A DNA stretch of 64,000 nucleotides from an uncultured Lachnospiraceae bacterium. Its GTDB lineage: Bacteria > Bacillota > Clostridia > Lachnospirales > Lachnospiraceae. The DNA lies in contig CANQAR010000004.1 of NCBI GenBank assembly GCA_947588845.1, positions 1-64,000 of the forward strand. Reading direction: 5' to 3'. Positions 3,726 to 17,172 of the stretch are shown here, piece by piece. The notes beneath the pieces were generated by a model that worked only from the letters and a program-made list of their open reading frames with translations, had not been told where the DNA came from and searched no databases. Position numbers and translations under genes: made by a program. Position 1 is the stretch's first letter. Each line of letters starts with the position of its first letter.

Positions 3726-4503
3726 TTTCATTTCTCCTTTCTGTAATGCCAGCCCCTGCGGAAACAACACCGTTGATCTCACAGCTCAGACTGTTCGGCA
3801 TACTGCGCGGCCCTCTGACCGCATAGACTCCAAACTTCTTCAGCACATCAAACGTGAAGCGTGTCCTGTCATACTGTTCCAGAAGCTCCAGCCTCATCAC
3901 CCGGCTGATCGTCACATATTTTCCTTTATGTTCATACGGAATATCAACTTCAACAGCCCTGCATTTGTAGAGAATTGCGGAAACCGGGGCCGCCACGTAC
4001 ATATAGACCGTATCTCCCACTTTCACATTGCTGCTCTGCTTCCAGTCAATCACCTTATTTTTGCGAAACGCTTCCTCAATATCATAAAACTTCGGATTTG
4101 CCGGGACAAGCCATTCCTTCGGCCCTCTGCGGTTTTCTTTTTTCTTCTGGGAAGCCGTCAGATTGTAGCTCATATCAAGGAGATCCAGCACTTTTTCCTC
4201 CGGCACCGTCCCGTCGAGAAGAACGCTGATCCACGCAAAACGATTCATATGATATGCAGGAAATATCCCCTTTCCTGTACGCAGAACTTCTCCCAGCGCC
4301 GGATCACATTTCACATTCAGAATATCCGTCGGCTCAGTGCCCGGAAGTCCCAGTTTCTCTCTCCTGATGCACATGATAAGTCCGTACCATTTATGGCTGT
4401 CTTCATGGCGCAGCACCACACTGTCGGGATCCCATTTCCATGGATAATCCGGTTTCGTGCCGTATTTCTTGCGTGCATAGGAAAGCACGTCATCTCTGTC
4501 CAT
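3661..4503 (-). CDS. MmcQ/YjbR (CyaY-like) protein with C-terminal EVE/PUA-like domain
   Basis: The ORF track extends to 4788, but the stretch upstream of 4503 is antisense-like noise; the ATG at 4503 has GGAAG close by and starts the family-like MDRDDVLSYARKKYGTKPDY. Residues 1-115 look like an MmcQ/YjbR domain, with LRHEDSHKWYGLIM and FPAYHMNRFAWISVLL. Residues 130-235 look like an EVE/PUA-like domain, with KVGDTVYMYVAAPVSAILYK. The role of such two-domain proteins is not established; nucleic-acid binding is often proposed. The last 40 residues look unlike a domain and overlap the nitroreductase gene by 65 nt, so an indel near 3790 may have removed the original stop. Confidence 0.7.
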   Translation of the reverse strand: MDRDDVLSYARKKYGTKPDYPWKWDPDSVVLRHEDSHKWYGLIMCIRREKLGLPGTEPTDILNVKCDPALGEVLRTGKGIFPAYHMNRFAWISVLLDGTVPEEKVLDLLDMSYNLTASQKKKENRRGPKEWLVPANPKFYDIEEAFRKNKVIDWKQSSNVKVGDTVYMYVAAPVSAILYKCRAVEVDIPYEHKGKYVTISRVMRLELLEQYDRTRFTFDVLKKFGVYAVRGPRSMPNSLSCEINGVVSAGAGITERRNENGCTGTDHDAQKHARLQESSR

Positions 4504-4529
4504 AAAGTCTTCCTTCTCTCCCTGTATAT

Positions 4530-5273
4530 TTACACACTGAGCTTTCGCTCCATAATCCAGCACGACAGCCCGTACATCAGACCGGTCAGGGCAAAACCCG
4601 CCGCGATCACCGCACCGGAATTCGCCAGGAGACTGCCCAGATCCGGCAGATAACCGATCAGCTCTGACTCCCCAAACGTGATCAGAAGGTACAGGCCAAA
4701 GCTTGCCAGCCCGCTGAATCTCTTCCCCGCCAGCACCGTCGCGGCCAGCACAATCGCCAGATAGCCGGTCGTGATCGTCATAAGCCACGAAGAGAGTATG
4801 GAGAAAAACACGATCAGGATATCCCCGGAAGAAACGCTGATCTCAAAACGAAACATGGAGGTCACCCTCCTGACCGTATCCAGAAATTCCTGCAGTCCGC
4901 CGATATACAGCACGGCGACAGATACATCGATAGCGGCCAGCGCCGCAAAAAACAGTCCCGTAATAAAAATGGAAATCCCGTTCTCCAGCACCTTCGTCCC
5001 AAGGATCTGCCAGCTGCTTTTCGGAGTCAGAAACAGCATGTAGCTCTGCTTCGTATTCAGATCCCGGTGAAACACCAGAAGACTCTCTATGCCAATATAA
5101 AAAATACCGATCATCGCGCAGAGCATCAGCACGCTGATTCCCGCTCCAAGCCCGTTGTCCCATTTCAGAAACACTCCGGCCAGAAATGCCGCCTCCGCCA
5201 CTGCCGTGACCGCAAGCAGAATCAGTTTTGAAAACAGCGTCTTTCGAAGCTCATATTTCATCAGCTTTCTCAT
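4530..5273 (-). CDS. ABC-2 type transporter permease
   Basis: This 247-residue membrane protein has about six hydrophobic segments and no binding-protein features, matching the permease half of an ABC-2 type exporter. The family-like LFLTPKSSWQILGTKVLE stretch after the second membrane segment is typical of YtrC/D-like permeases. GGAGG lies 8 nt before the ATG at 5273, favouring it over an upstream GTG. It overlaps the ATPase gene by 23 nt, so the two are translationally coupled and should form one exporter at the membrane. The exported molecule is unknown. No GntR regulator, common beside such pairs, is present here. Confidence 0.8.
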   Translation of the reverse strand: MRKLMKYELRKTLFSKLILLAVTAVAEAAFLAGVFLKWDNGLGAGISVLMLCAMIGIFYIGIESLLVFHRDLNTKQSYMLFLTPKSSWQILGTKVLENGISIFITGLFFAALAAIDVSVAVLYIGGLQEFLDTVRRVTSMFRFEISVSSGDILIVFFSILSSWLMTITTGYLAIVLAATVLAGKRFSGLASFGLYLLITFGESELIGYLPDLGSLLANSGAVIAAGFALTGLMYGLSCWIMERKLSV

Positions 5274-5973
5274 AGCCTTCACCTCCGTGTCCGTAAATCT
5301 CGCGGTATTTATCTGTGACAGATTTTCCCTGCGTCTCCTGGAGCTCTTTAACCTCCCATACCCCTGCCAGATGACTCTGCTTTATGAAAATTGCTGTATC
5401 CACAATCTTCTCAAGCTCGTCCACCAGGTGACTGGAAATCACCAGTGCGACGTCCGGCGCGGCAGCCTCCATCATGCTGGCGATGATCTCATCCCTTGCC
5501 AGAAGATCAATCCCGTTCAAAGGCTCGTCGAGCAGATACACCTTCGCGCTCCTCGCCATCGTCACCGCAATTTTCAGCTTCGCCATCATGCCCGACGACA
5601 GCGTCTTTGTCCTCATATCAGACGTAAGCTCCATCCGCTCCAACAGCTCCTGATAGCGCTTCTCTGAAAAATCTTCGAAAAAATCCGCATAATACCTGCC
5701 CACATCCTTCACCGTCATCCACGAATAAAAATACGGCTCCGTCGACATATAAGCGACTTCTCGCCGGCTGTTTTTATCGACCGGGCTTCCATTATAAAAA
5801 AAGTTCCCGGCATCCGGCTTGACCAGCCCCACCGCCATCTTCATCAGCGTCGTCTTTCCGCTGCCGTTCGGCCCGAGCATGGCATAGATCCTGCCCGGCT
5901 CTATCGCAAACGATACCTGATCGACCGCCGTTTTTCTCCCGTACCGTTTTGTAATCTTCTTACATTCCAGCAT
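5251..5973 (-). CDS. ABC transporter ATP-binding protein
   Basis: This 240-residue ATPase energises the permease encoded just downstream. It shows the Walker A motif GPNGSGKTT near residue 35, a somewhat divergent signature SSGMMAKLKIA near 130, and Walker B with VYLLDEPLNGID near 150, followed by the ISSHLVDELE switch region. The start at 5973 has AAGGAG 6 nt upstream, while the longer ORF start at 6000 lacks one. Proteins of this type (YtrB/EcsA-like) commonly export lipids, peptides or drugs; the substrate cannot be told. The region upstream to 6193 holds divergent promoters for this operon and the next gene. Confidence 0.85.
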   Translation of the reverse strand: MLECKKITKRYGRKTAVDQVSFAIEPGRIYAMLGPNGSGKTTLMKMAVGLVKPDAGNFFYNGSPVDKNSRREVAYMSTEPYFYSWMTVKDVGRYYADFFEDFSEKRYQELLERMELTSDMRTKTLSSGMMAKLKIAVTMARSAKVYLLDEPLNGIDLLARDEIIASMMEAAAPDVALVISSHLVDELEKIVDTAIFIKQSHLAGVWEVKELQETQGKSVTDKYREIYGHGGEGYEKADEI

Positions 5974-6193: not shown

Positions 6194-7891
6194 ATGAACA
6201 GAAAAATCGGTATCGGACATCAGGATTTTGAGGATGTTATTACCAAAAACATTTTCTATGTCGATAAAACAGAATTTATCCGCGAATGGTGGGAAGAAAA
6301 CGATATGGTCACGCTGATCACACGGCCGCGCCGCTTTGGAAAAACTCTGAACATGAGCATGGTGGAAAAATTTTTTTCCGTTGATTACGCCGGACGCGGC
6401 GACCTTTTTACAGGATTATCCATTTGGAATCATGAAACGTACCGCATTCTGCAGGGAACATATCCTGTAATCAGCCTCTCCTTTGCAAATGTGAAAGATA
6501 CCCGGTATGAAGAGGCAAAACGGAGAATCGCTCAGATTATTACAGATCTGTACGGGCGGAACCGGTTTCTCCTTCAGAGTGGTTTGCTCAATTCCGAGGA
6601 GAGAGCTTTTTTTCAGTCCATCAATATAAACGCAGACGACGTCTCCATCACCATGGCCGTTCACCGTCTGTCCGAATTTCTCTGCCGCTATTATAAGAAA
6701 AAAGTAATCATCCTGCTCGACGAGTACGATACCCCTATGCTGGAAGCATGGGTAAACGGCTTCTGGGATGAACTCACATCATTTACCCGAAGTTTTTTCA
6801 ATGCCTCCTTCAAGACGAATCCTTACCTTGAACGGGCCGTCATGACCGGAATCACAAGAATCAGCAAAGAATCCATTTTCTCAGATCTGAACAACCTGAA
6901 GGTTGTCTCGGTCACTTCCGCAGAATACGCTGATTCTTTTGGCTTTCGGGAAGATGAAGTGTTTGCGGCGATGGACGCATTTGGCCTGTCCGACAGAAAG
7001 CAGGAGGTCAAAAACTGGTATGACGGTTTTATCTTTGGTCCTGTCCGTGATCTCTATAATCCATGGTCTGTCATTAATTTTCTTGATACAGGGAAGCTCG
7101 GTCCGTACTGGGCAAACACCAGCAGCAACGGACTTATCGCAATGCTTCTGCAAAAGGCGAACCCCAGCATCAAAACAGAATTCGAACAGCTGCTCCAAGG
7201 GAAAAAACTGAAAACCACTGTGGATGAACAGGTCGTATTTGAACAGCTGAATACCAGAAAAAATGCCATCTGGAGCCTTCTTCTCTCCTGCGGCTATCTG
7301 AAAGCGGAAAATCACGCCATGGACGAATCGTCAGGGCAGGAATTTTTCACCCTCTCCCTGACAAACAAGGAAGTCCTTCTGACATTCAAAGCCATGGTTC
7401 GAAGCTGGTTTTCCCAGGACGAACAGAATTACAATGAATTCATTCTCGCCCTGCTTCTGGGCGACCTTGACGCAATGAACGAATATATGAACCGCGTGTC
7501 TCTGAACATATTTAGTTTTTTTGACACCGGCAGACAGCCGTCCAGAGAAGAACCGGAACGTTTTTATCACGGTTTCGTCCTTGGCCTTATAGTGGAACTG
7601 GAAGGAAACTATACGATCACCTCCAACCGGGAAAGCGGCTTTGGACGGTATGACATCGTACTCGAACCCATCGATCACAAAAAAGACGCAATGATTCTGG
7701 AATTCAAAGTATATAATCCCAGAAAAGAAACCTGTCTCGAGGACACTGTCAAAAACGCGCTCCGTCAGATCCAGGAAAAAAACTACGCCGCTTCCCTTAT
7801 GGCAAGAGGGTTTGAAAAACAGCAGATCCGCAGCTATGGCTTCGCTTTTGAAGGGAAGAAAGTACTCATAGGAACATTTTCTCCATGCTGA
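6194..7891 (+). CDS. AAA-ATPase-like / PD-(D/E)XK nuclease-like protein, copy 1
   Basis: This 565-residue protein has the two-part architecture of the PF09820/PF08011 type: an AAA-ATPase-like N-terminal domain and a PD-(D/E)XK nuclease-like C-terminal domain. The Walker A-like loop TRPRRFGKT is at residues 43-51 and Walker B, VIILLDEYDTP, near 171-181. The nuclease core is readable as GRYDIVLEP...MILEFKVY near residues 485-510. The GGAG-to-ATG spacing is normal. These proteins are abundant in Lachnospiraceae and often occur in families; their function is unproven, with defence or mobile-element roles suggested. It is clearly more diverged from the other two full copies in this window (22.5 and 58.2 kb) than those are from each other. 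Confidence 0.85.
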   Translation: MNRKIGIGHQDFEDVITKNIFYVDKTEFIREWWEENDMVTLITRPRRFGKTLNMSMVEKFFSVDYAGRGDLFTGLSIWNHETYRILQGTYPVISLSFANVKDTRYEEAKRRIAQIITDLYGRNRFLLQSGLLNSEERAFFQSININADDVSITMAVHRLSEFLCRYYKKKVIILLDEYDTPMLEAWVNGFWDELTSFTRSFFNASFKTNPYLERAVMTGITRISKESIFSDLNNLKVVSVTSAEYADSFGFREDEVFAAMDAFGLSDRKQEVKNWYDGFIFGPVRDLYNPWSVINFLDTGKLGPYWANTSSNGLIAMLLQKANPSIKTEFEQLLQGKKLKTTVDEQVVFEQLNTRKNAIWSLLLSCGYLKAENHAMDESSGQEFFTLSLTNKEVLLTFKAMVRSWFSQDEQNYNEFILALLLGDLDAMNEYMNRVSLNIFSFFDTGRQPSREEPERFYHGFVLGLIVELEGNYTITSNRESGFGRYDIVLEPIDHKKDAMILEFKVYNPRKETCLEDTVKNALRQIQEKNYAASLMARGFEKQQIRSYGFAFEGKKVLIGTFSPC

Positions 7892-7936: not shown

Positions 7937-7992
7937 AAAATTTCAATTAAATTCGGCTTATAAATTTAACTGCCGAATTTAATTGAAATTTT
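7937..7992. promoter_or_regulatory. Perfect 21-bp inverted repeat before abiEi (probable AbiEi operator)
   Basis: Arms 7937-7957 and 7972-7992 are perfect reverse complements (start AAAATTTCAATTAAATTCGG) around a 14-nt AT-rich centre. The right arm runs into TTTTTTCTTG and lies just before the -10-like TATAAG near 8009-8014. AbiEi antitoxins are known to repress their own promoter by binding paired inverted repeats, which this fits. It could also act as terminator of the upstream + strand gene because a T run follows. Confidence 0.6.
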
Positions 7993-8030: not shown

Positions 8031-8609
8031 ATGAACAAACTTTCTGAAAACAAAAAGTTCATCACAACCACTGAACTAAAAAATATGGGATACTCCTATT
8101 ACAAGATAGGAAAACTTGAAAAAGACGGTCTTCTCCGTCAGGTAAATCGAAGCACCTATGAAAATCTCTCCTACAAGGGAGACGAGAACGACTTCTTCAG
8201 TGCAGAAGCCTTCGTACCGAATGGAGTCATATGCCTTATGAGTGCTGCACGATATTATGAACTGACCAATTTCCTTCCGGACACCGTTGATGTAGCGATT
8301 GACCGGAAGAAAAAAGTCGTCACTCTCCCGGACTGGCCGGAAATTAAAATATTCTACTTCGATCCTGCCCGAATGAAGTTTGGTATTTCCGAAGTCTGGG
8401 AAGGGGACAATGTTTTTCATATCTTTGATATTGAGAAAACTGTTGTGGATATCATCTACTACAGAAACAAGATTGGTATTGAAGAAACAGCCGAGATTCT
8501 TAAGAACTACCTGAAGCGCAGGGACAGACAGGTTGACCGGCTGTATGCCTATGCAAAACAGCTTAGATGCGAAAAAATAGTCAGAACATATCTGGATGTG
8601 CTCATATGA
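8031..8609 (+). CDS. abiEi: AbiEi family antitoxin / transcriptional repressor
   Basis: This 192-residue cytoplasmic protein is an AbiEi-type antitoxin of a type IV toxin-antitoxin system. The N-terminal winged-helix region (FITTTELKNMGYSYYKIGKL near residues 10-30) should bind operator DNA, and the rest (YFDPARMKFGI, FDIEKTVVDIIYYRNKIG) forms the antitoxin domain. GGAGG lies 8 nt before the ATG at 8031; the ORF-track GTG at 8022 is part of that site. It overlaps the toxin gene by 4 nt. The antitoxin looks intact although its toxin partner is truncated. The large inverted repeat just upstream is its likely autoregulatory site. Confidence 0.85.
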   Translation: MNKLSENKKFITTTELKNMGYSYYKIGKLEKDGLLRQVNRSTYENLSYKGDENDFFSAEAFVPNGVICLMSAARYYELTNFLPDTVDVAIDRKKKVVTLPDWPEIKIFYFDPARMKFGISEVWEGDNVFHIFDIEKTVVDIIYYRNKIGIEETAEILKNYLKRRDRQVDRLYAYAKQLRCEKIVRTYLDVLI

Positions 8610-9082
8610 TGAATGCAGAATCAGTAAAAGCGAGATTAAAAAACTTTGCCGCAGGAAGCGGGCATACCTTTCAAGAAGCTCTGACTTACTACGGGCTTGA
8701 ACGGACAATCTACAGAATCTCAGTTTCAGAATATGCCGATCATTTCGTGCTGAAAGGCGGCATATTCCTGTATGCAATATTCAACAGGAATTACGAAAGG
8801 GCGACAACAGACATTGATTTCCTTGCCCGACAGATTTCCGGCAGCAGTGAAAAGATGGAAACTGTCTTCCGCAACATATCATCTCAAGGAATTGACGATG
8901 CTCTTGTATTTGACCTTGATTCCATTACTGTGGAAGACATCACAGAGTTCAAAAAATATCATGGTCTCCATATTTCTGCCGTCGGATACCTGGATCGGAC
9001 AAGAATAGCCGTCGGAATTGATATTGGTTTCGGCGACGTAATATATCCGGATGCTGTAAAGCATCCACCTTTTGCAGGTTAA
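8606..9082 (+). pseudogene. abiEii: abiEii nucleotidyltransferase toxin, 3'-truncated
   Basis: The 158-residue reading frame starts in an ATGA overlap with abiEi and encodes the N-terminal half of an AbiEii nucleotidyltransferase-like toxin. It has YADHFVLKGGIFLYAI, the RATTDIDF metal-binding motif and VGIDIGFGDVIYP. Full-length family members run to roughly 250-300 residues, so the C-terminal half with the rest of the active site is missing. The family-like sequence stops near codon 149 (about 9050), after which the frame runs through the antisense of an adhesin gene until a chance stop. The product is probably inactive as a toxin. The break coincides with a 6-bp inverted repeat at 9049-9066. 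Confidence 0.8.
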
Positions 9083-11072
9083 TAGTAGGATCGCTGCTTC
9101 CCGAAGCGCTGGAGTCACCAATCTCGACAATGGTGGTCTTTTCGTCCGTCTCCGTATGGTCGGCGTAAAGCGTAGCTGTATTCTCCGCAATTTCCTGCGC
9201 GTTAACCTTCCCATTCACAATGACTTTGTAGGTAATGCGGATATACAATTCGTCCGGCAAGATGAAGGAAACAGCGTTATCCTCTTCAACGCCCATAAAG
9301 TAATTGTGTGACGCTTTATTGATCCCCGTTGTGGAGCTTGACCGTGTCAAAGGCTGCCATGCTCCGCTTTCACCGCAATACTCAACGGTGATGTCATACC
9401 CTCCATCTGTAGTTGTAACGAGTTGCAGATTGCTGCTCATCTGGTCAACCAGTTTGTAGCTGTCCAGATTTACAAAGGTATCCTCGCCCGTATCGACCTG
9501 CACCAGATCGATCGCCGACGGATTGACCTGGATGGTGTACTGCAAAACACCGTCTTGGCCGGGAACCGCCTCAAAGTTCTTTTGCAGCATATCGTAGGGG
9601 ATGTCTACACTGGCATCGTCGGTCGGAGCATTATCACCATACCTGAGACAAGCTGTATTCTTGATGTCCTGATCCGGCTTCCAGTCGTTTCTGTCTTCGT
9701 CATTCAGCTGGAGCTGGTAAACGAAATAGATCTTCCAATGGGCAGCAAACACCTTGCTTATACCGTCGCCTGCATTGAACCAGAGACCATCGTAAGACTC
9801 CAGAACAAAATCCTGCACATTAACGTTTAGGGTATTCTTTTCGGTCAGCGGGTTGCCATTATTTCCGTTATATTTATAAACAGCATAGGCCCCGTCGCTC
9901 TCTTGGCCTTCCCAATAGACCTCCAGGCGCAGCGAATCTGCCACATACTCCATGCGCTTGTCAAACATATCCTCGAAATAGGTCTCCGGACTTATCTTGC
10001 TACCTGGTGCGACCTCCCTGTCAGTATTAAGCTTAATAAAACGGTTGCCTTTTTCATCGGCGTTGTCAAAGCCTACCCGATACTCTACTACGCCATTCCC
10101 CAGGTAACGGGCGGTCTTGTCGATCGAACCTGTTTTCGGCTTCTTTTCCAGCGTAGCCGAATTATACAGCACAACGCCGCTACGCCGATAATATACGTTG
10201 TTCGTCAAAGTGTTGCCTTGCGACAGCAGCTCGCCTACGGTAGTGTTCAGCTCTTTACCGTCTGCATCAACGACGATCGTATCATAAGGGATTTTATAGG
10301 TAATCGTCATCCGGGTATCCTCGTTGATATCCCAGATGGAGTCGTACTTATTTAAGGTCTCATCTGTCCCCACGCCGTAAGGGGCCGTATTGAAATAGAT
10401 CCGAAACTCCCTGTAGCTCTCGCCTCCCGTCGTTGCACTATTCTCAGGAACCAGGTAAGATCTGGAAGGTCTCCCGGGCCTCATCGTCGCCATTCCCGCT
10501 GACGCAAGGCGCCTCCTCAAAACTCCAACTGTTTGTCGTATCCTTGCTGGTCACATAGATGGTGACGTCCTTCGGAGCATTCAGGGCATAGTAGGATGTT
10601 GTCTGACCTTCTGTAAATTCCAGATCATCCTCCAGATAGAAATAGGGGAGATCCAATTCATGGCCTTTGTCGCGGCCCAGCATGGACTGCATATAGCTAC
10701 TCTTTGGGATATCCACAGTCACCGTATAAGTTAAATATCCCTCCTTCTCATTGTCGATGACGCTCTTTTGGATCGCCTCTCCTATGGGGATTCTGCCATC
10801 CACGCCGTCCGGCGTTATCAGGCGGGCATGCAGCTCCGCCTCCTTTGGGATCCGGGCCTCTTTTCCATACATCGCTTCCACATACACCGTGTCATCTCTG
10901 TATGATGCAGTCAGCGGGCCGCCTCCCCCGTGGAACTGCGTCCACAACCCTAAGGAAAACAGAATCACACCGAATATCAGGGACACCCAGCCCGCAATGC
11001 CCAGCAGGGTATTCGGCCCATTTCGCTTGTTAAACACTTTTTTGGGACATCATTCATTTTTGTCATTTCCAT
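9061..11072 (-). pseudogene. Surface adhesin (SpaA/Cna-type) gene, frameshifted and 3'-truncated
   Basis: Two adjacent minus-strand frames together encode the N-terminal part of a large cell-surface protein. The first (to 10444) begins with an uncleaved-looking hydrophobic segment (AGWVSLIFGVILFSLGLW). The second carries isopeptide-type adhesin sequence ending at TINLQKVDA, the opening of a SpaA-like domain. GGAGG lies 7 nt before an ATG at 11072, but the frame is lost at an A6 run (11038-11043) and again near 10450-10480. The repeat domains and sorting signal expected at the C-terminus are absent because the sequence passes into abiEii. Two frameshifts plus truncation make this a decayed gene. 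Confidence 0.75.
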
Positions 11073-11402
11073 CCTGCTACCTCCATAAACCACTGCTGAA
11101 AACCGGTAATTCTCCGGTCTTATGATTGTTTCAGGCGTCTTTTCGCCCGGCAAGTACCAGAACCTGTTCTCGTCCAGACAGAAAGACTGTCCAGAAGCAT
11201 CCGGTCCGTTTTCGCAGTTCTGACCGCCGTGCGCTGCTTCCATCCTGACTGCCTCCCGGACAACATCCTCCTTTTCCCTGCTCGCAGACGCATAACAGAC
11301 TGTCACAATGGGAAAACTCTGTAATACCAGAACAGATCCAGCCAGCTGGTGTCGCAGATTACACAAATCTGCGACACAAAGCACAAAATTGCCAAAATTT
11401 TA
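11073..11402. other. Intergenic stretch with an 11-bp inverted repeat
   Basis: I recognise no gene. A minus-strand ORF (to 11384) reads through part of it but resembles no family I know; it might be a remnant of the adhesin locus. TGTCGCAGATT (11350-11360) and AATCTGCGACA (11366-11376) form a perfect hairpin with a 5-nt loop. Confidence 0.4.
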
Positions 11403-11434
11403 GCCCGCCGGAGAAAATCTCAGGCGGGCCTTTT
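11403..11434 (+). terminator. Strong intrinsic terminator without a recognisable upstream gene
   Basis: GCCCGCC-g-GAGA pairs with TCTC-a-GGCGGGC around AAA, followed by CTTTTTA. This is a textbook + strand terminator, yet no + strand gene was found before it; it may end a decayed gene or a small RNA. Confidence 0.65.
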
Positions 11435-11511
11435 TACTTGCCAGACCGACTATGCGCAAGAGACGACAACAGGTATGAGCAATACAGCAGCGTGAACAAA
11501 GTGAACGATGC

Positions 11512-11577
11512 GGCGCCGCGTGCCAGTAGCGCACGTTTAGCCCCGGTTCTGAGCGCCAGTGGCGCTCGTTTAGAACC
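11512..11577. repeat. Tandem pair of palindromic units of about 33 nt
   Basis: Two units share the pattern GCCAGT-GCGC-CGTTTAG. The second forms a hairpin, GGTTCTGAGCGCCA with TGGCGCTC and AGAACC, with a GTTT bulge. The first can form CGTGC/GCACG. The sequence that follows (to about 11640) keeps a similar GC-rich style. No coding function is evident; it looks like a short dispersed palindromic repeat. Confidence 0.5.
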
Positions 11578-11754
11578 GACCGAAACGGAGTGGAGACCCG
11601 AAGCGGAGCGCAGACCGCTGAAAGCGTGGAGTCATCTGCTTTCATTCGTGGTGTTACTGACAAGCTGAAAAAAGCACCAGCCATTTGACTGACTGATGCT
11701 TATCTTTCACCATATAAATTACTTTGTTTCAGCAGATGCCAAATACAGGCGTTT

Positions 11755-12513
11755 TCACTTAATCCTGAAGCCGCCCATCTCTCCGAACTCCCACGTCCCA
11801 TGAACCCCGCAGGACGCGGCGCCTACTTCAAACTGCATCTTTGCAATCCCGAGATCCACAAGTTCAAGACCGTTGCCAGGTTTCCAGATTCTCGCAAATA
11901 CCTTTCCTTCCTGGTAGACAATATTTACCGGCTGCTGATTTGCCGCAGACGGTCCCAGCTTAACCGCCTCGACTCCTTTCTGAAGCCAGCGGGGCTGTCT
12001 GTCAAACTCCTGTCTTGCTTCCAGAAACTCCTCAAGCCTGCGGTCTTTTCTCCGTACGGTCGCTCGGATCATCTTCTGCCTCGCAGGTGTATTGTCCGCC
12101 GCATACCCCAGCGTTATGACGCTCCAGAGTTTTTCTTCCGGAGGCACTTCCACCCAAAAAGATTTTTTGTCATACGTTCCCGCAGCCCAGCATGTCCCGA
12201 GACCAAGCCGTTCTGCATACAGAACCAGCTTTTCCCCGTAATATCCGATCTTTTCGGCTGATATGGGATCACTGCCTCCCACGAGGGCCGCAAAAGCATA
12301 CACGATCCCGCTGAACATGGAAGAAGCCATCTTTATGGCAGGTACTCCCACTTTCCTCGACGCCTGCAGCTGGAAATGAAGACCGGACTCCTGATTCATC
12401 TCCTCAATAAACGCAGACAGCTTCGCAAGCTTTTCCTCTTCAATCATTTTCTTTTCCCTGTAGGACCTGCAGGAAACTCGTTTTTCAAGTACTTCCCAAT
12501 CTGTTGTAACCAT
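11755..12513 (-). CDS. Putative nitroreductase family protein
   Basis: This 252-residue protein matches the larger clostridial nitroreductase branch (putative TM nitroreductase type) in which two half-domains are fused. Recognisable parts are KRVSCRSYREKKM near the N-terminus, YYGEKLVLYAERLGLGTCWA near residue 90, VITLGYAAD, and GPSAANQQPVNIVY near 190 in place of the usual N-terminal flavin loop. GGAGG lies 6 nt before the ATG. FMN binding and NAD(P)H-dependent reduction are inferred from the family; the substrate is unknown. It appears monocistronic. Confidence 0.8.
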   Translation of the reverse strand: MVTTDWEVLEKRVSCRSYREKKMIEEEKLAKLSAFIEEMNQESGLHFQLQASRKVGVPAIKMASSMFSGIVYAFAALVGGSDPISAEKIGYYGEKLVLYAERLGLGTCWAAGTYDKKSFWVEVPPEEKLWSVITLGYAADNTPARQKMIRATVRRKDRRLEEFLEARQEFDRQPRWLQKGVEAVKLGPSAANQQPVNIVYQEGKVFARIWKPGNGLELVDLGIAKMQFEVGAASCGVHGTWEFGEMGGFRIK

Positions 12514-12892
12514 CTTGTTCCTCCTTGCATATTTACTTACTTATATAAAATAATATTTCCTGCCGGAATAATTGTCAACCAGTTTTCAACGGATTCCCTT
12601 AACTTCATACTATTGTCTGCCGCAGTATGATCCCGCGGAGCGTTTTTTGTGTCACAGGACGAAATTTCCTGTAACATGAAAAAACAGACACCCTTTTTAA
12701 TCCACATGCGTGCCTGCGCAAAAACAGCTCCCATCCGGCAATCTTTCTGACAGACAGGAGCTGATCCCTCTTTATCCAATTACCATCAGCCGGCATATCG
12801 AGCACTGGCTCTCCGTCGACGCAGATCATGCAGAGCGCCGCGCAGGCAGGAATCGCAGAAACAACAACACCTCAGCTCGTCCTGTATCCGGC
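12514..12892. other. Intergenic region without a recognisable gene
   Basis: About 380 bp separate two minus-strand genes. I see no credible ORF. ATGCGTGCCTGCGCA at about 12710 matches 15 nt of the palindromic repeat at 25.96 kb, and GCGCAGGCA near 12840 is its partial complement, so a degenerate copy of that repeat may lie here. Confidence 0.35.
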
Positions 12893-13891
12893 TTAAATTC
12901 CGAATCTCTCTTTGTTATAACGGTTAATTTCATCGATGATGATCGTCTCCACCTGCGGGTAAATGGTTCCCGGGCCTCCATAGCTGTGGCTGGGCATGAA
13001 ATGCGGCAGATTTCCATAAGCGGCAAGCGCTTTCTTCACTTCCGCACGAATTTCTTCTTCCGTGACATCTTCGCGGTCGATCACCGAATCAATACCGCCC
13101 ATCAGAGCCATGCGTCCATCCAGTTTTTTGGTAAGCGCCGCGATATCGTTCGTCGGAAGAACTCCCTGCCAGATATCTACGCCGATCTCAGCCAGATCTT
13201 CCACAATCGGCTCACAGAAAGAATCCGCATGATGAATCACCATAACATCGTTCGCGTGCAGATAATCATACAGCTTCCGGTACGGCTCCTTGAAAAATTC
13301 ACGCCATGTCTCCGCTTTCATGAACAGACTGGTCTGGCTGCCAAAATCATCATGGGAAAGAATCGCGTCCGGATGCAGATTCTCCACAATCAGCTTCATG
13401 TATTCCAGACGGTATTCCGTGATGGCATCGATCAGCTCGTGAACCTCATCCGGGTACAGCAGCAGATTGCACAGCGTATCCTCAAACGTCATCAGCATAT
13501 GCATCTGCTCAAAAATTCCGGTTCCCATAACCGTCATGGAAAAATACTGTGAACTGTCAATTGCCGCCTTGTTTTTCAGGGCTGTCTCCCATCCGTCCGA
13601 ACAGTTGGCGCGCAGATCCGGCACTTTGACATATTTCTGCCATTCTTCAATATCCTGAATCACCTGGTTCTCTGCCGTGACGATCGGAACCGCAGCCGGC
13701 TGATCCTCCGGAAAGGAAATAAAGGTTCCCCAGCGGTCATAGGAATCTGTTCCGCGGATACGGTTGCCTCTTACATACTGAAAGACGGGATCCCCGCCGA
13801 TCGGTTTGAATGCAGTATAGCAATTTGTCAGGCAGTCCGGTTTCCCATCTTTTTTGATCGTCTCCAATACGTTTTCTCTCGGTGTAAGCAT
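12893..13891 (-). CDS. Uroporphyrinogen decarboxylase family (MtaA/CmuA-like) protein
   Basis: This 332-residue protein has the fold of uroporphyrinogen decarboxylase-like enzymes. In anaerobes such stand-alone members usually act as methyltransferases with corrinoid proteins rather than in haem synthesis. Readable family parts are LTPRENVLETI at the N-terminus, HDDFGSQTSLFM near residue 215, VMVIHHADSFCEPIVEDLAEIG near 245, and ALMGGIDSV. The start at 13891 has GGAGG 8 nt upstream; the listed TTG at 13897 does not. No corrinoid protein gene is adjacent, so the methyl donor and acceptor are unknown. A very AT-rich divergent promoter region lies upstream. Confidence 0.8.
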   Translation of the reverse strand: MLTPRENVLETIKKDGKPDCLTNCYTAFKPIGGDPVFQYVRGNRIRGTDSYDRWGTFISFPEDQPAAVPIVTAENQVIQDIEEWQKYVKVPDLRANCSDGWETALKNKAAIDSSQYFSMTVMGTGIFEQMHMLMTFEDTLCNLLLYPDEVHELIDAITEYRLEYMKLIVENLHPDAILSHDDFGSQTSLFMKAETWREFFKEPYRKLYDYLHANDVMVIHHADSFCEPIVEDLAEIGVDIWQGVLPTNDIAALTKKLDGRMALMGGIDSVIDREDVTEEEIRAEVKKALAAYGNLPHFMPSHSYGGPGTIYPQVETIIIDEINRYNKERFGI

Positions 13892-14224
13892 ATTCAAATC
13901 CTCCTTCTGCTTTTGATTCTTTCGTACTCATTATAACCTCAGCATTCTTTTTCATCAAGTGTTTTTATATTATCTGATTGTTTCTTTATATGCTATGTAA
14001 CTTTTATTTGTTTTTATTATTAAAAATATTTTACTATATATAAATATCTCTTAATATATTTAATGTTTATATTAATCTTTTTATACGCCAAACTTGCCTG
14101 CTGCAGCGAACCAGAATGTTCTTTTGTTGACAAAACGGATTATTCCACAGTATAGTGTAATCTATAAGAAAATACCTCTCTTTCCTGAACCCGCTGGCAA
14201 ATTTTAAATGAGGAGGATTTTATA
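13892..14224. other. AT-rich divergent intergenic region
   Basis: About 330 bp of strongly AT-rich sequence separate the divergent MtaA-like and aldo/keto reductase genes. Apart from the promoter at 14127-14156 I find no gene or clear repeat. The composition suggests intrinsic curvature and a promoter role for both directions. Confidence 0.5.
14127..14156 (+). promoter_or_regulatory. Near-consensus sigma-A promoter of the aldo/keto reductase gene
   Basis: TTGACA (14127-14132) and TATAGT (14151-14156) are 18 bp apart, about 60 nt before the ribosome site of the gene at 14225. Confidence 0.65.
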
Positions 14225-15484
14225 ATGAATAAAATGGGATTTGGTTTTCTCCGGCTTCCGGTCACAGACCCGAAAGTCCCAGACTCTTACGATCTGAATC
14301 TTCTGAACCGTATGGTTGATTATTTTCTGGAACACGGCGGCCGGTATTTCGACACCGCATACACGTATCTGAACGGAAAAAGCGAATGGGCACTCAGAGA
14401 ATGTCTCGTAAAACGTCATCCGCGGGAGAGCTTTCTTCTCGCAGACAAGCTTCCCGGCTATCTGATGACCTCGCACGAAGACTGTCGGAAATATTTTGAA
14501 GAGCAGCTGGAGCGGTGTCAGGTGTCTTACTTTGACGTCTACCTTCTGCACTGGCTGAACAGCAAAAATTATGAACTGGCAGAAAAATACAGCGAATTTG
14601 AGTTTTTGCAGGAACTGAAGGCTTCCGGCAGGGCAGGCAAAACCGGCTTCTCCTACCACGATACCGCCGACCTTCTGGACCGTATCCTCACCCGCCATCC
14701 GGAAGTGGACTATGTACAGCTGCAGGTCAACTACCTCGACTGGGAGAGCGAAGCGATCCAGGCAAGGCGATGCTGCCAGACTGCCTGCAAACATCACAAA
14801 AAAGTGATCGTGATGGAGCCGCTCAAGGGAGGAACCCTGGCGCAGATCCCTGAAAATGCCGAAAAGCTCCTGCATACGCTTGATTCCAGATTCGATGCCG
14901 ACCGCGGCGATCTTGCAGCCACGAAATATGCCGCACCGAAATGCGGCAGAAATAAGACAGCAGACTCTGATTTTGACAAACACAGCAAAAACTGTCCGGA
15001 AAATTCACTTCCTGGGAAATTGACAACTTCGGAACCTTCCGTTTTCGTCCCCTCAACCGCCTCCTATGGCCTCCGCTTTGTACAGAGCCTGCCTGAAGTC
15101 GAGATTGTGCTAAGCGGCATGAATACCATGGAACAGATGATCGACAACATGCAGGACGTGGAGCCTGTCTCCGACGCTGAAAAGGCCGTGATCTGGAAAG
15201 TGGCCGATCTGCTCCGCCATTCAACCGCCGTCACATGTACGGCCTGCGGCTATTGTCTGCAGCACTGCCCGCAGGATATCCCGATTCCGTCTTACTTCAA
15301 ATTATATAATGAATATTCCAGAAATCCTGGCGACGACTGGAAGATCAGACCCGCCTACCAGGAGCTGGCTGCAAACTATGAGTATGCCTCCGGCTGTGTC
15401 AAGTGCCGCAGCTGTGAGAAAAACTGCCCGCAGAACATTCCGGTCACACACTATCTGGAGAAAGTCGCGGAGGTATTCGAATAA
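14225..15484 (+). CDS. Aldo/keto reductase with C-terminal 4Fe-4S ferredoxin domain
   Basis: This 419-residue cytoplasmic oxidoreductase joins an aldo/keto reductase barrel to a dicluster ferredoxin-like tail. The barrel has FDTAYTYLNGKSE, a lysine in LLADKLPG, and the VYLLHWLNS stretch. The tail carries CTACGYCLQHCPQDIP and CVKCRSCEKNCPQNIP, each able to bind a 4Fe-4S cluster. GGAGG lies 8 nt before the ATG. Residues 225-280 hold an unusual hydrophilic insertion (with KYAAPKCGRNKTADSDFD) where related enzymes move straight into the FVPSTASYGLRF region. This family is common in anaerobes; substrates are unknown, and the clusters probably pass electrons. Confidence 0.85.
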   Translation: MNKMGFGFLRLPVTDPKVPDSYDLNLLNRMVDYFLEHGGRYFDTAYTYLNGKSEWALRECLVKRHPRESFLLADKLPGYLMTSHEDCRKYFEEQLERCQVSYFDVYLLHWLNSKNYELAEKYSEFEFLQELKASGRAGKTGFSYHDTADLLDRILTRHPEVDYVQLQVNYLDWESEAIQARRCCQTACKHHKKVIVMEPLKGGTLAQIPENAEKLLHTLDSRFDADRGDLAATKYAAPKCGRNKTADSDFDKHSKNCPENSLPGKLTTSEPSVFVPSTASYGLRFVQSLPEVEIVLSGMNTMEQMIDNMQDVEPVSDAEKAVIWKVADLLRHSTAVTCTACGYCLQHCPQDIPIPSYFKLYNEYSRNPGDDWKIRPAYQELAANYEYASGCVKCRSCEKNCPQNIPVTHYLEKVAEVFE

Positions 15485-15541
15485 ACAGATATCTGATGTT
15501 TCGGGTTACACGGAGGCCGAAATGTGAAAAACTGATGGTGA

Positions 15542-16696
15542 TCAATTCTTCTGCAGCTGTGCAATTATTGCTTCCAGTTCCTTTACTTTCGCCTCCGCAG
15601 CCTCCGCCTTCTTCTTCTCAGTCTCCGCTTTCTCCTCTGCAGCCTCTGCTTTCTTCTTCTCGGCTTCCGCTTTTTTCTTCTCAGCTTCCGCTTTTTTCTT
15701 CTCAGCTTCCGCTTTCTTCTTCTCAGCTTCCGCTTTCTTCTTCTCAGCTTCCGCTTTTTTCTTCTCAGCTTCCGCGAGATCCCTCATCCGCTCGTATCTT
15801 TCCCACTCCTCATCAAATAACATTTGTGTCAGTCTCAGCATCCTGATCTCCTCCTTTATCTCTTCAAGATCTTCCCTCTCCAGAAATTTATCTGCCATCG
15901 CGAACAGCATCGCCTCCGCTTTCTCTGACAGCTCCTTCTCTTTTGTTTTCCCTTTGCTTATCAGCCTCAGCGCCGTCCGGATCCGCTCTCTCATCTCCGT
16001 CTTCCCGTCCATCAGCGGACACAGGGTCAGGAGTACCAGTTCCTCCTTCGTGATAACCTCTCCTTTGTCCGCCTTTTCTCTCAGTCCGGCAAGCAGATCA
16101 TCCGCGTCACGGTTTCTCATGATGATCGGCTGGATCCGGTATGTATTGATCCCCGATGTAAACTCTGTCATCGGACTGCGTACTCTCCCCGAATACAGCA
16201 CGTATGTCACGATCTCCACGTTATACTGATACCCGGCCAGCGCCTCATATGCACGAAAACGCTTCAGACCTTTCAGGCCTTCATTTTTACTCTGAAACTC
16301 AAAATGTTTCCACTCTCCGTTTTCCATCACCAGATTGAAATCCTGAAAGAATTTATGCACCTCCAGCTGAACAAGCTCCGTCGGCGCAACGGAAACCACC
16401 TTTCCTTCGATTCCAAAACAGGGAAGCAGCTCATCCGCAAAGAACTGCATGGAAGTCTTCAGGATTGCGTCCTCATGCTGCTGCACGGTATGCCGTGAAT
16501 CCTTTTTGCTGCTGTCAACGCTTTCTTTTTCTTCGGTTTCCGCCGCGGCATTTTCCTTTTCACTGTCTTTCCCCGCGACATTCCTCTCATTATTTCTTCT
16601 TTTTCTGTTCGCCTCCCCGGAAGTTCCTCTTTCTCCGTTTTTTTCTTCGGCTGCTTCCTGTCTGCTGACTCTGTCATGTTTTTGTTTTTCCTCCAT
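15542..16696 (-). CDS. Rpn-like PD-(D/E)XK nuclease family protein with C-terminal coiled coil
   Basis: This 384-residue protein resembles Rpn-type (recombination-promoting nuclease/putative transposase) proteins. The likely nuclease core is DFNLVMENGEWKHFEFQSKN near residues 115-135, an acidic residue followed by E-x-Q. The first 60 residues are charged and low in complexity. The C-terminus is nine heptads, about six of them AEAEKKK, predicting a long helix or coiled coil. AAAGGAG lies 4 nt before the ATG at 16696, whereas the upstream ATG at 16714 has no site. The heptads are encoded by near-identical 21-nt units, so copy number could vary by slippage. Cellular role unknown. Confidence 0.75.
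   Translation of the reverse strand: MEEKQKHDRVSRQEAAEEKNGERGTSGEANRKRRNNERNVAGKDSEKENAAAETEEKESVDSSKKDSRHTVQQHEDAILKTSMQFFADELLPCFGIEGKVVSVAPTELVQLEVHKFFQDFNLVMENGEWKHFEFQSKNEGLKGLKRFRAYEALAGYQYNVEIVTYVLYSGRVRSPMTEFTSGINTYRIQPIIMRNRDADDLLAGLREKADKGEVITKEELVLLTLCPLMDGKTEMRERIRTALRLISKGKTKEKELSEKAEAMLFAMADKFLEREDLEEIKEEIRMLRLTQMLFDEEWERYERMRDLAEAEKKKAEAEKKKAEAEKKKAEAEKKKAEAEKKKAEAEKKKAEAAEEKAETEKKKAEAAEAKVKELEAIIAQLQKN
15587..15775 (-). repeat. In-frame 21-nt tandem repeat (nine heptad units)
   Basis: Nine 21-nt units encode the C-terminal heptads of the Rpn-like protein; the six nearest the 5' end are almost identical in DNA (GCTTCCGCTTTTTTCTTCTC on the + strand). Unit length keeps frame, so gain or loss changes only the coiled-coil length. 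Confidence 0.85.
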
Positions 16697-17172
16697 AAAT
16701 CTCCTTTCCGACATGTCATGATGCTGGAGTCAAAATGAATTTTTTCCCCATGATGCCACAAATTGCTCCGCATTTCATGCTTACGCGATTCTGAAGCACC
16801 TCACAGCCGCTATACTAAAAAGTAAATCTTTATCTGCACTCATTGTATCAGTTTTTTTCGATCAACACAATCCTTTTTATATTTTTTCTGATTAAATGAT
16901 ACTTTTATATTTTCGCTGATGGTTCCTCTGAACTGAGGTGAATTTAAAAAGAGAGACTATGATAATAGAAGAATCTAGAATAGGGTCTGATATTTCTACA
17001 TTCTATGACATATCTTATTTATTTCATTCAATATAATACGATATATCAGGATTTTTGTCAATCTTTTTCGTTTGAAAAATTTTTATGCCATAAAAATCCA
17101 CTGAAATTTCCTATACAGGTCACTCACCATCGCCCAGTAAACATTCATACCCTGCAGACAGGGCAGCGCGAA
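16697..17172. other. AT-rich intergenic region upstream of the Rpn-like gene
   Basis: About 475 bp with no recognisable gene. It contains a consensus minus-strand promoter (17033-17061) and an 8-bp inverted repeat GGATTTTT/AAAAATCC (17049-17099) around it. A nearer, weaker minus-strand pair TTGTGT/TACAAT lies near 16845-16875. Confidence 0.5.
17033..17061 (-). promoter_or_regulatory. Consensus sigma-A promoter pointing to the Rpn-like gene
   Basis: On the minus strand TTGACA (17061-17056) and TATTAT (17038-17033) are 17 bp apart. Transcription from about 17026 would leave a leader of about 330 nt before the Rpn-like start, or make a small RNA. A perfect 8-bp inverted repeat overlaps its -35. 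Confidence 0.55.

Follow-up and report, generated by a model that had tools for sequence, protein, structure and literature searches.

A head-on junction between truncated abiEii and adhesin genes as the probable scar of an illegitimate deletion in a gut clostridium

How do two convergent genes, one for an AbiEii toxin and one for a surface adhesin, both come to lose their 3' ends at the same point, and what does this leave of the toxin-antitoxin pair? A preliminary description of the locus proposed an inversion or illegitimate end-joining. We analysed the stretch of DNA holding it (the window; positions 1-64,000 of a 78.7-kb contig) from a draft genome (G000; 5.06 Mb in 280 contigs, 97% complete), together with a congener of the source organism (G006; abiEi locus L060 on contig C219 and adhesin 5' half, L061, on C97), its closest relative (G067; 93-95%), 41 loci of AbiEii relatives found through the N-terminal half of AbiEii, and 18 abiEi loci (L101-L118) from other genera of the family at 50% identity or more. 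Judging by its named relatives, the source organism would belong near Lachnospiraceae. The junction is very probably the scar of one illegitimate deletion in a locus that would have run abiEi - abiEii → ← sortase ← LPxTG adhesin. What is observed are the broken homologies, the convergent gene order in G006, and the absence of the toxin 3' half elsewhere; that the deletion was a single event, and how large it was, is what we infer. The features concerned are listed in Table 1.

Table 1. Features of the abiE-adhesin junction region, in window coordinates.
Feature	Position	Strand	Basis
Near-perfect palindrome 5' of abiEi, probable AbiEi operator	7937..7992		89% self-complementary over 56 bp
abiEi antitoxin gene, intact, 191 aa from ATG at 8034	8034..8609, stop included	+	Pfam AbiEi_4, homologues
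abiEii remnant, 152 of ~295 codons; motifs I-II (GG...DID) kept, III-IV (KLEA..., KDxxD) lost	8606..9061	+	PF08843, relatives
Junction, break point 9061/9062, 6-bp inverted repeat	9049..9066		0-2 bp microhomology
Adhesin body remnant (isopeptide/pilin-like domains), cut before last SpaA domain and LPxTG anchor	9062..10807	-	C110 paralogue
Adhesin leader, 77 aa, one hydrophobic segment, joined at 10808 to downstream body	10808..11037	-	Five homologous leaders

Similarity to abiEii gives way to similarity to adhesins at 9061/9062, where the two sides have 0-2 bp in common, so that the two convergent genes are, as first described, cut at one place. The inverted repeat reported at the edge, GGATGC-TGTAAA-GCATCC, lies exactly where it had been placed. 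As a cause of the break it was rejected, and its presence at the edge is due to chance. Inverted repeats of six bases with spacers of 3-12 abound in the window (285, compared with 134-181 in mononucleotide shuffles; 25 have a spacer of exactly 6), and both arms consist of native codons, the left one of abiEii (relatives have GATGC in the same codons) and the right one of the adhesin (GTG-GAT-GC).

On the toxin side, the abiEii start overlaps the abiEi stop as ATGA, and the remnant matches only positions 3-119 of the 238 in the PF08843 profile. Intact relatives, mostly 294-302 aa long and from other gut clostridia, resemble the window as far as YPDAVK, after which they continue M-D/E-F-P-V-I-L-D where the window reads HPPFAG-stop; at the nucleotide level the similarity ends with the AAG codon at 9059-9061 (codon 152). 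The KLEA and KDFYD motifs of the relatives fall past this break, and what is left of the gene does not encode a nucleotidyltransferase with all of motifs I-IV. Dy et al. (PMC3985639) found for the AbiEii that they studied that toxicity depends on every one of the four motifs, and with III and IV lost the remnant is almost certainly inactive. It is scarcely credible that the 158-aa product is instead a functional short variant, whether a minimal toxin or a regulator: although its reading frame has stayed open, with motifs I-II retained and the start still overlapping the abiEi stop, the essential motifs III-IV lie beyond codon 152, the final codons are antisense adhesin sequence, and the abiEii of G006 was destroyed in a different way. 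The preliminary description had named a full-length AbiEii with this same C-terminus as the finding that would tell against a truncation, and none occurs among the 41 relatives; its statement that the antitoxin was left without a complete toxin agrees with an intact abiEi beside an AbiEii that lacks motifs III-IV.

The join could in principle have been made during library preparation, amplification, or assembly, and both the fragmentation of the draft genome into 280 contigs and the repetitive nature of the adhesin family would favor such a chimera. We consider this quite improbable, however, as the two sides of the join have only 0-2 bp in common and lie within a 78.7-kb contig; the flank on the adhesin side shows synteny with G006, and both outer flanks show it with G067. 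An overlap this short would be unlike the repeat-collapse product of a k-mer assembler, and would not be a typical assembly error. The junction 29-mer was not found in viral_contigs, a collection where no match was expected, and the abiE region had no similarity to plasmids; an origin of the locus from phage or plasmid was rejected on these two results.

The comparison with relatives proposed at the outset showed a near-ancestral convergent order in G006, with a sortase gene between the two genes. On C219, abiEi (98% identical) is followed by remnants of abiEii, of which only codons 1-9, 100-111, and 224-243 are left; beyond them the sortase gene (PF04203) and an adhesin 3' half ending in LPETG lie on the other strand. 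An adhesin 5' half is found on C97 beside the genes that follow the adhesin in the window (window 11719-16997, 80-88%). Aligned to an adhesin of G067 that is intact at 1254 aa, the two halves cover residues 1-522 and 673-1254, a tiling from which the link between C219 and C97 across the contig gap is drawn. Together, the gene order in G006 and the tiling halves point to the pre-deletion arrangement given above. Two inserted genes, for an AAA ATPase and a partner, also separate the toxin remnant from the sortase gene in G006, possibly as a defence cassette; part of the sortase 3' end is duplicated on either side of this insert (L060 780-929 and 3185-3334, 93% identical). G067 offers no undamaged reference, having no abiE match and contigs that stop at window position 6858 on one side and ~11665 on the other; the adhesin-sortase operon that it has on C122 belongs to a different location, with PPIase, DegV, and dipeptidase-like neighbors.

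With the convergent order already in place in G006, simple loss of the intervening DNA is enough to bring the genes head-on, and no inversion is needed. An inversion or translocation joining the abiEii 5' half to the adhesin 5' half would account for the head-on orientation and the non-homologous join, but it would also have kept the AbiEii C-terminal half, and the search for the missing halves that the preliminary description recommended recovered no such sequence elsewhere in the 97%-complete source genome (best E 0.48). We regard this explanation as very improbable, and an inversion with a reciprocal junction was rejected on that absence. Thus, of the two events first proposed, the illegitimate join is upheld and the inversion is not. 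In the proposed history, a single deletion in the ancestral locus would have removed the abiEii 3' half, the sortase gene, and the adhesin 3' end, so that the 5' parts of the two genes came to face each other across a join without useful homology. What survives is abiEi, together with the palindrome in its promoter region and its translational overlap with abiEii. Based on the sum of the missing pieces relative to G006 and C110 (~430 bp of abiEii, ~760 bp of sortase, and 375-880 bp of adhesin), the deletion is estimated at ~1.5-2.5 kb. The sortase family has other members in G000, the closest (83%) on C210, downstream of a separate adhesin. The window locus is a case of ordinary gene decay.

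The adhesin carries damage beyond this deletion. Its body aligns at 47-49% identity with an LPxTG paralogue of 1418 aa encoded on contig C110 of G000, over residues 542-1125 of the latter, and on the minus strand reads ...DSSASGSSDPTINLQKVDA down to 9062/9061; past this point, where the window adhesin (...INLQKVDA) is cut, the paralogue runs on into the C-terminal SpaA region. NCBIfam gave only a weak isopeptide-domain match to the body (TIGR04226, below cut-off). DNA similarity to five leaders (G006 C97; G000 C117 and C16; G067 C122 and C92) stops exactly at 10808, where a second rearrangement has fused the leader of 77 aa to adhesin body sequence from much farther along, and a frameshift at ~10440-10520 parts two open frames; the preliminary description mentions neither lesion. 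Neither an LPxTG motif before the junction nor an intact reading frame was found in the window adhesin. Given the internal junction and the frameshift, the gene is a pseudogene regardless of the break at 9061/9062, through lesions that arose either before the deletion or since. The body resembles the C110 paralogue more than it does the adhesin gene of G006, and the window and G006 loci are therefore not simple orthologues throughout.

Several repeats were observed around these genes. Upstream of the adhesin, at 11349-11377, the window has a lone palindromic site, GTGTCGCAGATT-ACACA-AATCTGCGACAC; in the same pre-adhesin place, G006 (L061 8961-10521) and G067 (L160 8263-9751) have two such sites flanking a tyrosine-recombinase gene, with inverted cores in G067. 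The recombinase and its paired sites look like an invertible or mobile switch that the window has lost or never gained. A dispersed repeat at 11433-11616 has dozens of partial copies in G067, an overlapping inverted repeat of ~133 bp (84% identity) lies at 15580-15775, and an AAA-ATPase_like/PDDEXK_9 gene at 6194-7891 has many diverged copies in G067.

The antitoxin gene has fared differently from its partner. AbiEi scores 25.8 bits against Pfam AbiEi_4 (cut-off 25), and full-length homologues in other genera are 50-90% identical. Between G000 and G006 the abiEi DNA is 98% identical, compared with 80-88% for neighboring genes, from which it appears that the abiE module was probably exchanged between the two lineages. 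The two copies differ by seven synonymous and four non-synonymous changes (pN/pS 0.15; binomial P 0.003 against proportional change), which suggests that abiEi is under constraint, though the changes are few, mutational bias may contribute, and part of the branch may predate the loss of the toxin. The core of the palindrome upstream of abiEi (ATTCGGC...GCCGAA) occurs in the same place in all eight relatives inspected while the outer flanks differ, as is expected for an AbiEi operator, and 7937-7992 is the probable operator on this sequence evidence. In the one system studied, AbiEi autoregulation likewise runs through inverted repeats (PMC3985639). The bicistronic arrangement with an inverted-repeat element is thus present in the window, in the form of the ATGA overlap and the conserved palindrome, whose operator role is predicted. 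As abiEi, the palindromic promoter element, and the translational overlap have all been kept, AbiEi has probably been left as an orphan antitoxin that still acts as an autorepressor, its present activity being something we infer; open and conserved beside a broken toxin, it has the makeup of an orphan antitoxin.

Toxin-antitoxin biology predicts that the toxin is lost before the antitoxin, an asymmetry expected because losing the antitoxin first is harmful. Relatives of the window locus follow this pattern. The antitoxin gene was intact in 18 of 18 abiEi loci, with abiEii complete or nearly complete in 10 and broken in seven or eight (L101, L104, L107, L108, L109, L113, L118, and also L115, in which the break is a frameshift that could be a sequence error). 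The break points of the remnants differ, and the losses therefore look independent. Among the 41 AbiEii loci, the antitoxin was intact in four (L017, L032, L033, and L043) whose toxin was broken or divergent at its end. The reverse state, an intact toxin with a broken antitoxin, was never seen in the 18 abiEi loci or in those of the 41 AbiEii loci where the antitoxin region was on the contig. Taken over all these loci, the count hints at a decay of AbiE modules in these bacteria that begins with the toxin, and with such decay, presence calls made from abiEi alone would overcount working AbiE systems. A bolder reading, which we hold to be possible but doubtful, is that abiEii has been repeatedly and independently deleted in these gut clostridia while abiEi and its operator were kept under selection and the orphan AbiEi put to use; if true, orphan AbiEi would serve either to regulate transcription or to protect its host from addiction to AbiE elements that enter the cell. 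In the source genome itself, a second abiE-like pair was observed on contig C153 (~4412-5330; L063), with its antitoxin open and its toxin stopped early.

Taken alone, the window locus is an ordinary deletion scar; with a neighbor species in a near-ancestral state, it is a clean case of a head-on pair of half genes arising without inversion. Its two halves can be compared with known systems. The adhesin shares its leader, body domains, and domain order with SpaA/isopeptide LPxTG adhesins that have a dedicated sortase (PF17802, PF04203), with the G067 (1254 aa) and C110 (1418 aa) proteins as intact references, but differs from them in lacking the last SpaA domain, the LPxTG anchor, and the sortase, and in its frameshift and internal junction. 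The other half resembles the AbiE type IV toxin-antitoxin system (AbiEi/COG5340, AbiEii/DUF1814, PF08843) in gene order, ATGA overlap, AbiEi wing domain family, AbiEii nucleotidyltransferase motifs I-II, and the palindromic element before abiEi; unlike that system, it has a toxin cut at codon 152 without motifs III-IV and is a decayed, non-working pair. A survey of Klebsiella pneumoniae recorded 2253 orphan antitoxins, type IV groups included (PMC7192599). The window is comparable in having an intact antitoxin beside a degraded toxin, and differs in its AbiE family, its gut-clostridial host, and the toxin remnant that is still present. Orphan antitoxins and decayed toxin-antitoxin loci are an already described phenomenon, to which the window adds an instance.
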